Positions 7,003 to 10,960 of a DNA stretch of 64,000 bases are shown here, in pieces; the first letter of the stretch is position 1; every line of letters begins with the position of its first letter. Under the pieces are notes generated by a model. The model was not told where the DNA came from and searched no databases. It worked only from the letters and a program-made list of their open reading frames with translations. Source of the stretch: Amphirosellinia nigrospora (taxonomy: Eukaryota > Ascomycota > Sordariomycetes > Xylariales > Xylariaceae); assembly GCA_004123355.1 (NCBI GenBank), contig SCHM01000003.1, forward strand, positions 7,769,058 through 7,833,057, read 5' to 3'. Position numbers and translations under genes: made by a program.

Positions 7003-8919
7003 ACTCGAACCCGAAACACTCGCCTCACCGGCTACAGAGGTCTTACCTTTCGGTCCCGTGAAGAAGGGAAAGGAAAGGAAAGGAAGGGGAATTCTGAGCA
7101 TAAAAGGCGGCGAATCCTCCCCTCAAACGGAGGAAGGAATTAGATCTATATGGCCCCTTTGGTACCATAGTCGTTTATTACTCAAATTGAACCTATTCCA
7201 AGCCCTCAATTAGAGCCCTTGTGACAGGCTGTCTAAATCTACGGAGAGCTTCACGTATCTGCTTCATCACCGGAACTCAGAAGGATATTGTCACAGAACG
7301 CTACGAAACAGCTACCGGAGACTAAGGGGCATGGTATACAAGCTCATAGCATATGCATATATATACCAGCAGTACAGACTCTATTGAATAGACAGGGCTT
7401 ATCTTCTTTATCCAAAAATAACAAGTTTGTACAAAAGCTACTAGTAGTAAAAGACATGACAAAGATAATAAGAGTTTTGACAAGTAGGAGTTAATAGTTC
7501 GAGGGATAATACTGAGCGTCTGAGGCTCCTAGTGTTAAATGAATGAATCAAGTATAAAAAGTACGAAATGCTTTTTAACTTGGATCAGCTAAACTGACTG
7601 TACTAAGGTGCATTAGGATTTAAACCTTATCAACAAATCCTAAAGTATTGTTATGATGAATAGTAGAAACTAGATGCTAGCTGATGCTCATTTGTATAAA
7701 AAATTTAATTTTTTACAACTTTGTGGCCTTGAATCGCAACATTCGTTAAATCAGGGGGATTTCCAGCTTGAGCTAAAAACATATAATTTATTTGATTGGC
7801 TGATTGTCTTACTGCGCTGCTCCTAATACGGTTAGAGCATAGCTCGGGCCGGGCGGATCTATTCTATTCTTAGGTACCGACGCGCTAGACAACTGCCCCA
7901 ATTTCTTCTCGACTACCTACCGAAACATATGTGCTTTTGCATATTAAAAAAGGCCCAGAAACCGATATCTAGAGAAATACTATTATTGCTCAGCGCTATT
8001 ATGAATTAAACTCTATCCTACTTTCTATTTCTCTATTCGGCCAATATTAAGTTACTAGCTCATAGCTATTATCATAGTATATCTCAAGTAGGATCCTATC
8101 ACTTTCCAGAGGTGAATAACTTAGAACTCCAATATCAGAGTGGGGTTAATAAAAGCACAGTTATAAAACCGCCTGATCTTGCGGAACCCTTGCCGACACA
8201 GTTGGGGAAGCGGGGTAGAATCCCACCTCGTCAGACCTGGTATTGCTCCGAGTAAGAGACCGTGCGTATGACGATTGACAGGGGGTGATCTCGATCTACC
8301 TGCTCATGATATCGCGTGATACCATTTTGTAGGCTTTAAGACCGACGCATAAAGATTCACCATGTCAATTTTACAAGGTCCTTTGATCACATGAATTGTA
8401 GTTGTTTAAGTCTTCGGTTAGTCTGAAGATTCGGGAATCGCTGGAGTCGCTAATCACAACTCGACTAGCCAGGGGAGAGGAGCGGCATCGGTAGATCATA
8501 CACAGGCATATCTACCTAATCCTGCTCTTCCCCATACTCATGTATGGAGAGATGTGGGGGACGTGAGACGAAGCCGGCAGATCTATCGCCGAATGATGCC
8601 AAACTCGGCCGGCTATTGCCGCTCTCTAAGGTAGATTATGAGCTCATCATCAGACGTCTGCGCACATCTGTATGTTAGTTTATCTTGTTGTAAATAATCG
8701 CTACATAGGTAGTAAACTTCTACTAAAGGAAAAGGGTGTCATAGGAAACTTTGAATAACTCGCAAGTTATACCCTAGCCAAGTGTTGTTGTAACACTTGT
8801 GGCCACAGATCAGACCATTTGTGCTATATAGTTAATTTCTTCCGCCTCAATACGGCTCTCAGCATTCCCTTCTCTCAACCCAACTCCTCACTTGAAAACG
8901 TCCCCTGATCAGAACGACT
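7003..8919. other. Gene-free interval
   Basis: About 1.9 kb, increasingly AT-rich in the middle, with no frame that resembles a protein. A TATA-like ATATAG at about 8826 lies roughly 90 bp before the transporter start and may belong to its promoter. Confidence 0.55.
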
Positions 8920-10960
8920 ATGGACAAAAACAGCCCTACTTTGGGCTCAGGGGCAAATGGCTCACCTTTTGGATAACGGCAAGCGCCCATGAGCTGCGGT
9001 CAAATGTCATTGTCCACTAACCTATAGGATAGGTAGCCTGTGCCACAGATATGAGTTTGTTTGGCTACGATCAGGGTGTTTTCAGTAAGTAGTGACTCTG
9101 AACCCCACCCTTTCTAACTCTGCCAACACTATAGGCGGCGTTGTGATCACGCATGACTACCTCGAAGTTCACAACCTCGACGGCCCGGGGAAGACGAATG
9201 TCCGTTCAATCGTTACGTCTATATATACCATTGGCTGCTTCTTCGGTGCGCTACTAGCCTTTTCCATTGGGGAAACCCTTGGTCGCAGAAAGACGATTGT
9301 CATTGGCACTACGATCATGACAATCGGCGCCATTTTGCAAACGACTTCGTTCAGTGTACCCCACATGATTGTAGGGCGTATCGTCACTGGGTGAGTAAAT
9401 TGAATGAGGTTTATTATACTGCGGGAAGCTCGACATCGTTAAACATAATAAGCATTGGGAATGGAATCAACACCGCGACCGCGCCAGTGTGGCAAACTGA
9501 GACATCAAAAATTCACAACCGCGGCAAGCTCGTGCTTCTCGAAATGAGTATGAACATTTTTGGCTTTATGCTGAGCAACTGGATTAATGTAATCTTCCCT
9601 ACAAACTACTTGACCAGTGTCTTAAATGAATGCTAATTACTCAACAGTATGTAAGTCACCGGGATAATTCCCCTTCAGTAAAGATACTATAGGTCACGAT
9701 ACAACTATACACTGAGTCCGAGCTACCAAACGAAATGTTAACAATGATAGGGGCTGTCATACGTCGGAGGCCCTATCGGATGGCGGCTACCATTAGCGCT
9801 TCAGTTGCTATTTTGCGCAGTCCTGTTCAGCACCGTGCCATGGCTCCCTGAGTCTCCACGGTAAGTACTCAGGGGCGCTTTCTCAAAAGCGACTCTCATT
9901 TAACGTATTGCTGATAGATGGCTACTTGCGCACGGCCGAGAAGATGAAGCTAGCATCATTCTAGCTGACCTCGAGGACAAGGCAGTCGATGACCCGGAAA
10001 TTGTTGCCGAGCGCAAAGCGATCATGTTTAGTGTCGAATATGAACGGAAAAATGCAATTAGATGGCGGGACCTTCTTCGCGGCCGGACGACTTCAGGAAC
10101 AAAGACGGTGAGACGACTGCTCCTTGGCTGCGGCACGCAGGCTTTCCAACAATTCGGTGGCATCAACGTGATGAGGTAAACAATATCCGCGGCTCAGTTT
10201 CGAGACGCGTCTATTAAACTGTGCTAGCTATTACTTGCCTACGCTCTTGATAGAGTCTGTCCGACTAGAAGATCAAATGGCACGGCTAATTGCGGCCCTT
10301 GCATCCGTTGCGTATCTCTTCGCCTCGCTGGCTGCAGCCCCAATGGTCGAACGATTTGGGCGACGTGTAATGATGCTGACCTCGACATTTATTCAACTGA
10401 TCTGCTTCATTCTCATAACTGTGCTTCTGCGTTTTACCGAAAAGCCGGGATATCCACACCAAACCGAAGTCGCCAAAGCCAGTGTTGTATGGTTCTTCGT
10501 GTACTACATTGGCTTCGGTCTAGGGATGCTGGGGATCCCTTGGCTGTACCCAACCGAGATCAACAGTCTACCTATGCGAACTAAAGGAGCCGCAGTGGCA
10601 ACAATGACAAACTGGATTACCAACTTTCTAGTAGTCGAGGTCACTCCTATTGGTATTCAGAACCTTGGATGGAAATTCTATGTCATCTGGGCCGTGGTCA
10701 ATGCCGTCGCATTACCGATAATCTGGGCGCTTTTTCCAGAAACGGCCAATAGGACATTGGAGGACCTCGATGCCTATTACCGTGAAGATCCGCCTTTGCT
10801 AGTCATCAAAGACAAGGATGCCACTTGTGTGCATCGACCTCAAAAGTTCGCAATAGCGCAGAGCCGTGATGTCGAGGACGTTGCAGCAGCTGGGTTGAGG
10901 GGGCGCTCTATTCACGAGGACGGCGACGAAAACCTGTTTACGAATGATAAAGGGAGATGA
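8920..10960 (+). CDS. MFS sugar (hexose-type) transporter, eight exons including a 3-nt microexon
   Basis: Plasma-membrane sugar porter of the major facilitator superfamily, 12 membrane helices expected. Exons: 8920-8978, 9033-9084, 9135-9390, 9453-9588, 9648-9650, 9751-9860, 9918-10175, 10228-10960. Family signatures are present: SLFGYDQGVFSG, GETLGRRK, PWLPESPRWL, QQFGGINVMSYYLPT, ERFGRR and PETANRTLEDLD. The spliced product is about 535 residues, normal for the family. The first intron would start with GC (8979, GCAAGC) instead of GT. The N-terminal frame needs one added base near 8943 to join ATG 8920 to LRGKWLTFW; no other in-frame ATG exists. The fifth exon is only TAT and supplies the conserved Tyr of WINYG. 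The C-terminal tail is cytosolic and charged. Confidence 0.9.
9648..9650 (+). other. Candidate 3-nt microexon (TAT, Tyr)
   Basis: Flanked by an intron at 9589-9647 (GTAATC to CAG, with CTAAT near the acceptor) and one at 9651-9750 (GTAAGT to TAG, with TTAAC). Skipping it deletes the Tyr from the strongly conserved WINYGLSYVGG segment; including it restores the motif in frame. The arrangement could equally be spliced as a stepwise twin intron, giving the same mRNA. Confidence 0.7.

Follow-up and report, generated by a model that had tools for sequence, protein, structure and literature searches.

The question raised by this locus is whether a fungal sugar transporter gene carries, between two complete introns, an exon consisting of a single codon. 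The window, i.e., the whole stretch of 64,000 nucleotides that was analysed (positions 7769058–7833057 of one contig, in a genome of 48.1 Mb in 11 contigs), contains a sugar porter gene in which, according to the original prediction, two complete introns lie back to back with only TAT (9648–9650) between them; the boundaries are as it had placed them. The sequences analysed here argue strongly for a constitutive microexon of 3 nt, which gene callers have very probably missed in relatives of this gene. That the two introns are spliced, the order of their removal, the constitutive use of the exon and its presence in other species are what we infer from these comparisons.

Gene Model and Source of the Sequence

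The modelled translation (Table 1) runs through 544 residues with no inner stop, and the modelled introns of the gene span 50–100 nt. The product shows full-length similarity to STP10, XylE and the GLUTs, and its listed relatives carry PF00083, which places it among the fungal sugar porters (MFS, Sugar_tr). The best relative among the matches listed is the Xylaria acuta protein P0001, with about 90% identity, and the other near ones are proteins of Xylariales, Xylaria included. On the strength of these listed relatives, the source organism is to be regarded as a Xylariaceae-like ascomycete.

Table 1. Coordinates of the sugar porter gene and of its predicted exons and introns around the 3-nt exon (positions in the window).
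Feature	Position	Strand	Description
Sugar porter gene (MFS, PF00083-type)	8892–10960	+	8 predicted exons, 7 predicted introns; 544 aa, modelled from a TTG
Modelled exons 1–3	8892–8978, 9033–9084, 9135–9390	+	gene model
Exon 4	9453–9588	+	ends ...TGG ATT AAT (W I N), phase 0
Intron 4	9589–9647 (59 nt)	+	GTAATC...CAG; branch-like CTAAT at 9633
Exon 5 (putative 3-nt microexon, TAT)	9648–9650	+	Tyr178 of the model, within WINYGLSY
Intron 5	9651–9750 (100 nt)	+	GTAAGT...TAG; branch-like TTAAC at 9738
Exon 6	9751–9860	+	starts GGG CTG TCA TAC (G L S Y)
Modelled exons 7 and 8	9918–10175, 10228–10960	+	gene model

Splice Elements and Predicted Order of Splicing

The sequence across the junctions reads ATTAAT/GTAATC...CAG/TAT/GTAAGT...TAG/GGGCTG, with 162 nt from the first donor to the last acceptor. 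The donors, branch-like sites and acceptors that had been claimed for both introns are all present (GTAATC, CTAAT and CAG in intron 4; GTAAGT, TTAAC and TAG in intron 5), the branch A lying 11 nt from the end of intron 4 and 9 nt from that of intron 5. Measured against the consensus, the TTAAC branch site and the GTAATC donor are not the strongest forms. Both introns are in phase 0, so that TAT forms a whole codon. If a microexon is taken to be an internal exon that does not exceed roughly 30 nt and is flanked by two introns whose splice elements are complete, the one predicted here, at 3 nt, belongs to this class.

The proposed course of splicing is the following. Each flanking intron, having its own donor, branch site and acceptor, would be short enough for intron definition, while the acceptor CAG and the donor GTAAGT, being 3 nt apart, could hardly be occupied at the same time; because only these 3 nt separate them, the introns should be removed one after the other. 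Removal in either order would leave the other intron complete and lead to AAT-TAT-GGG (WINYG). The earlier suggestion of a twin intron with stepwise splicing thus stands insofar as the same mRNA is predicted in either order, but not in the strict sense of a stwintron, in which a splice element is interrupted: no element is split here, the base before intron 4 is a T, and the donor GTAAGT of intron 5 is whole and starts 3 nt past intron 4.

Alternative Splice Paths and the Possibility of Regulated Inclusion

Splice paths were enumerated by taking each GT (or GCAAG) at 9560–9759 as donor and each AG at 9590–9799 as acceptor, with one or two introns of 40–250 nt and a loose branch-like site, and were scored against seven reference proteins picked by hand from outside the clade described below. 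Among the 45 paths tried, 6 are in frame and free of stops. The path with the 3-nt exon is the best (mean score 336.1 against these seven relatives) and the only one of the 45 to give WINYG without gap or insertion; the second is the single intron 9589–9750 (318.1), which is in frame and stop-free and lacks the Tyr. Reading through both introns meets stops, and with intron 5 retained the frame TAT GTA AGT ... CTA TAG soon ends in one. A direct junction of 9588 with 9751 removes 162 nt, the length of 54 codons, and therefore stays in frame but loses the Tyr, so the expectation that skipping TAT would delete this residue, and that inclusion would restore the exact motif in frame, was borne out.

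A skip that is neutral for the frame is also what a regulated microexon would use, i.e., a switch by which AAT-TAT-GGG and AAT-GGG mRNAs, and hence transporters with and without the Tyr of a conserved helix, come from one gene. The skipped form is what databases contain for 14 of the 24 clade proteins, codon-sized microexons in the nank family of Tuber melanosporum are said to be alternatively spliced (cited in PMC3689799 and PMC4986451), and Trichoderma Xlr2 is reported to have a microexon that acts like a switch (PMC11121469). Constitutive use is not to be assumed, since alternatively spliced exons of this size are known in Tuber, and some of the 14 deposited orthologue models without Tyr may rest on RNA, which would count against a constitutive microexon. 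However, removing one residue of a conserved helix motif would hardly bring an advantage, a single intron of 162 nt would exceed every intron of the gene, and annotations often miss tiny exons (PMC8831610), all of which makes the switch an unlikely reading. If it were true, a 3-nt microexon in one sugar-porter gene would provide two transporter forms without frameshift across much of a fungal family.

The Tyrosine Among Relatives and Paralogues

In an alignment of the query with 120 listed homologues of the 3024 found (121 rows), the Tyr column holds 95 Tyr (query included), 10 Phe, 14 gaps and 2 Ala. A closer comparison was made on the 58 closest rows of the listed homologues' alignment, where the only isolated single-residue gap in residues 16–519 is in the Tyr column, in 14 rows, among them those of Xylaria telfairii, Nemania serpens and Ustulina deusta. 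Nine of these have no other indel in residues 15–520; P0013, P0015, P0023 and P0030 also have indels in residues 15–47. The remaining gap row, P0010 of Xylaria cf. heliscus, also lacks query residues 252–263 (12 residues) in an otherwise intact core, perhaps through a wrongly called intron. In two further rows, P0049 and P0055, the gene models are locally scrambled at the Tyr site.

All 14 gap rows and both scrambled rows fall into one clade of 24 rows, query included (support 100/99), made up of Xylaria, Nemania, Poronia and similar fungi, in which the remaining 8 rows, the query among them, have Tyr. The 34 rows outside it comprise 28 Tyr, 6 Phe and no gap (16/24 inside versus 0/34 outside; Fisher p = 9e-9, descriptive only, as the rows are related). 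Arabidopsis STP10 has INYG at the aligned position. The description of this site as one of the best conserved in the family holds for these 34 rows, in which Tyr/Phe is constant, but less well for the paralogous sugar porters of the same genome, where only 13 of the 18 loci examined have Tyr (counted by eye).

The tree was built from 42 of the 58 rows (41 named relatives and the query), the 16 rows left out, the majority from Hypoxylaceae and elsewhere outside the clade, being counted among the 34 outside; the Tyr column was kept in the alignment, with its gaps as missing data. Given its well-supported branches, the gap state must have changed at least 7 times, or 6 times when the two scrambled rows are scored as gaps. 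There is some clustering of the gap rows on the tree, a value as low having come up in 18 of 500 label shuffles, which is expected if the arrangement is confined to the clade and also if some of the losses are real. A discordant pair is provided by P0004 (539 aa, from a 2069-base contig, source lgn), which has the Tyr, and P0013, a Nemania serpens gene model without it, the two being 93.5% identical over 538 columns. The contig of P0004 may be genomic or a transcript; a genomic origin is possible because its 2069 bases would just hold 1620 nt of coding sequence together with about 434 nt of introns.

According to the original prediction, orthologues with a single ordinary intron at this site and without the Tyr codon would speak against the exon, and the 14 annotated orthologue proteins seem to be of this kind; their scatter on the tree and the discordant pair nevertheless fit missed microexons better. 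It could be argued that the Tyr and the split intron are true here whereas in many of these 14 species the introns have fused and the Tyr is gone, in line with the 14 proteins without it, the partial clustering on the tree and a published case of exon loss beside a stwintron (so far as described in PMC6616335). The interleaving of the two states within the clade, with the number of changes given above, the complete absence of proteins lacking Tyr/Phe among the 34 outside it and the disagreement at Tyr within so similar a pair all weigh against such losses, which we regard as very improbable.

An old microexon common to the clade and usually merged with its flanking introns by gene callers is the simplest reading of these data, and it draws together the mixed pattern within the clade, the gap lying exactly on the exon and the disagreement between P0004 and P0013. 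The exon would most likely have originated in an ancestor of the Xylaria/Nemania/Poronia-type lineage and would have been kept there as the Tyr is needed, the gene callers usually taking the 162 nt as one intron. Annotation of this gene appears to be error-prone at introns generally: 12 of the 58 rows have indels in residues 15–47, near introns 1 and 2. In residues 290–310, near intron 7, 9 of the 58 rows, mostly of Hypoxylaceae and Biscogniauxia/Camillea, have indels that are likely gene-model faults. The indels near introns 1, 2 and 7, which occur both inside and outside the clade, are longer gaps or insertions, with some one-residue insertions and no isolated one-residue gap. As the gene models err at other introns too, a fault at residue 178 is easier to believe.

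Frequency of Comparable Sites by Chance

The 162 nt were shuffled with the first 6 and the last 30 nt fixed and the dinucleotides of the interior kept. With patterns defined post hoc, after the site was known, a YAG-Tyr/Phe codon-GT site flanked on both sides by 40 nt or more arises in 332 of 20000 shuffles, in 7 of 20000 when a GTRNGT donor is demanded and in 3 of 20000 when a branch-like site is demanded as well; by the same post hoc patterns the whole 64-kb window holds 9 loose-pattern sites on the + strand, only the TAT site also having a GTRNGT donor, and 14 on the – strand, none with such a donor. The view that 9589–9750 is a single intron here too, with the Tyr lost and CAG-TAT-GTAAGT arisen by chance, is hardly credible, for in spite of the in-frame, stop-free path that ranks second of 45, it has against it both this rarity in shuffles and the constancy of Tyr/Phe outside the clade.

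A Probable Trace of Intron 5 and the Origin of the Two Introns

In the scrambled model P0049 from X. polymorpha, exon 6 is read in the wrong frame and is preceded by SELVNAMLTRA, where the window in the same frame reads SELPNEMLTMI up to the acceptor. The identity of this model with the end of intron 5 amounts to 7 of 15 residues, a value reached in 1 of 2000 base shuffles of the intron, and the joined stretch, when searched by tblastn against no more than the 551-base region, gives an E of 5e-14, to which exon 6 contributes most. Indirectly, this makes it very likely that X. polymorpha has the 3' end of intron 5, with its branch-site region, at the same place. P0055 was considered as a second trace and set aside: its match to the microexon region is weak (E 1.1), and the segment also fits the sequence across the boundary of exon 6 and intron 6.

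Both introns look specific to the lineage of this gene, with no recent copying seen, because the 18 paralogous loci examined have no intron at this place and the genome search returned no second copy of either. Inheritance of their positions from paralogues was rejected on the finding that 18 of the 18 loci aligning across the site lack an intron there (counted by eye from 43 overlapping locus records, with the query locus and the weaker paralogues without a locus left out). A recently copied, introner-like origin was likewise discarded: for intron 4, and equally for intron 5, a search of the own genome that skips simple repeats and very common words returned the intron itself and no second copy. 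A scan of viral contigs returned no relatives of the locus.

Relation to Known Ultra-Short Exons

Exons of 3 nt as such are not new in fungi, given the codon-sized, alternatively spliced microexons reported in the nank (NACHT-ANK) family of T. melanosporum (Iotti et al., 2012, as cited in PMC3689799 and PMC4986451). The present case resembles these in being a codon-sized exon of a filamentous ascomycete and differs in that the Tuber exons, as cited there, number tens in one family, are alternative and diversify the protein, whereas here a single one lies in a transporter and constitutive inclusion is the better fit. Closer in kind is CYP621A of Fusarium, whose single-nucleotide exon is described as confirmed by RNA reads (PMC12940212, in the part dealing with this gene): it too is a very short exon of a filamentous ascomycete gene that lies within a conserved motif of the protein. 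The Fusarium exon is conserved among orthologues and missed by nearly all gene models, which would hold for the present exon as well if the proposed reading is right. Unlike that RNA-confirmed exon of 1 nt, the omission of which breaks the frame, the exon of 3 nt is predicted from sequence and its omission would silently drop one residue.

Outside the ascomycetes, the shortest exon given for P450 genes of Phanerochaete is 6 bp (PMC1184071, in the section concerned), and a 1-nt exon is mentioned for plant VPS55 (PMC8831610). Arabidopsis APC11 has a constitutive 1-nt exon that was tested with reporter constructs, before which, in the words of the abstract, the smallest constitutive exon known was of 6 nt and the smallest alternative one of 3 nt (PMC4674806); it is likewise an ultra-short exon between two introns and constitutive, as proposed here, but of 1 nt and in a plant gene. 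Animal microexons of 3 nt, in Drosophila homothorax (PMC7392893) and troponin T (cited in PMC8042270), also amount to one codon but are, by these accounts, alternatively spliced. Two candidate precedents were dropped on the relevant passages: the "3-bp exon 2" of Ganoderma gpd seems to denote the initial 3 bp of that exon, as carried by a construct, and no microexon (PMC8379801), and the Cryptococcus paper PMC3990503 mentions a mapping option only.

Stwintrons are reported in Xylariaceae/Hypoxylaceae (PMC12403724, PMC9024468, as excerpted), that is, in the same fungal group, and share with the present arrangement two adjoining introns that are removed sequentially, as is proposed here; a stwintron has a splice element of its outer intron broken up by the inner one, whereas the two introns here are each complete and separated by coding sequence. 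The words microexon, micro-exon and short exon are absent from the available text of PMC12403724, and no paper pairing "microexon" with "Xylaria" was found in the open PMC literature.

If the constitutive reading is true, few constitutive exons known in fungi would be as short, and this one would have been kept through many speciations, since losing the exon costs a conserved residue. The more useful side of the case is the likely misannotation, which would be silent across the clade: as 162 is divisible by three, a gene model that absorbs the exon into one intron yields a plausible protein one residue short, with no warning. A one-residue gap at a conserved site, confined to a clade, may thus serve as a signature of hidden 3-nt exons in protein databases. 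The handling by the spliceosome of an acceptor and a donor 3 nt apart would also become directly testable.

Start of the Gene and Other Introns

The transporter has no in-frame ATG near the expected start, the frame being open back to a TAG at 8829 (window 8829–8925), and the ATG at 8920 sits in another frame. Among the 22 nearest relatives with a readable start, 21 begin 4–10 residues before QPYFG, and P0020 begins 11 before it. The gene may start at a codon other than AUG or have a further exon upstream that escaped the model, and a fault of the assembly or recent loss of function could equally underlie this; because the ATG is absent, the gene could be a decaying copy, a young pseudogene in this strain. 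The core nevertheless shows no decay: at columns that are invariant in the other rows, the query nowhere deviates (residues 30–489 in 55 of the 58 rows, P0015, P0049 and P0055 having been dropped before counting). Intron 3 (9391–9452) needs the uncommon acceptor AAG and is without a CTRAY-like branch site, and intron 1 (8979–9032) appears to be of the GC-AG kind (GCAAGC...TAG), with a branch-like CTAAC.
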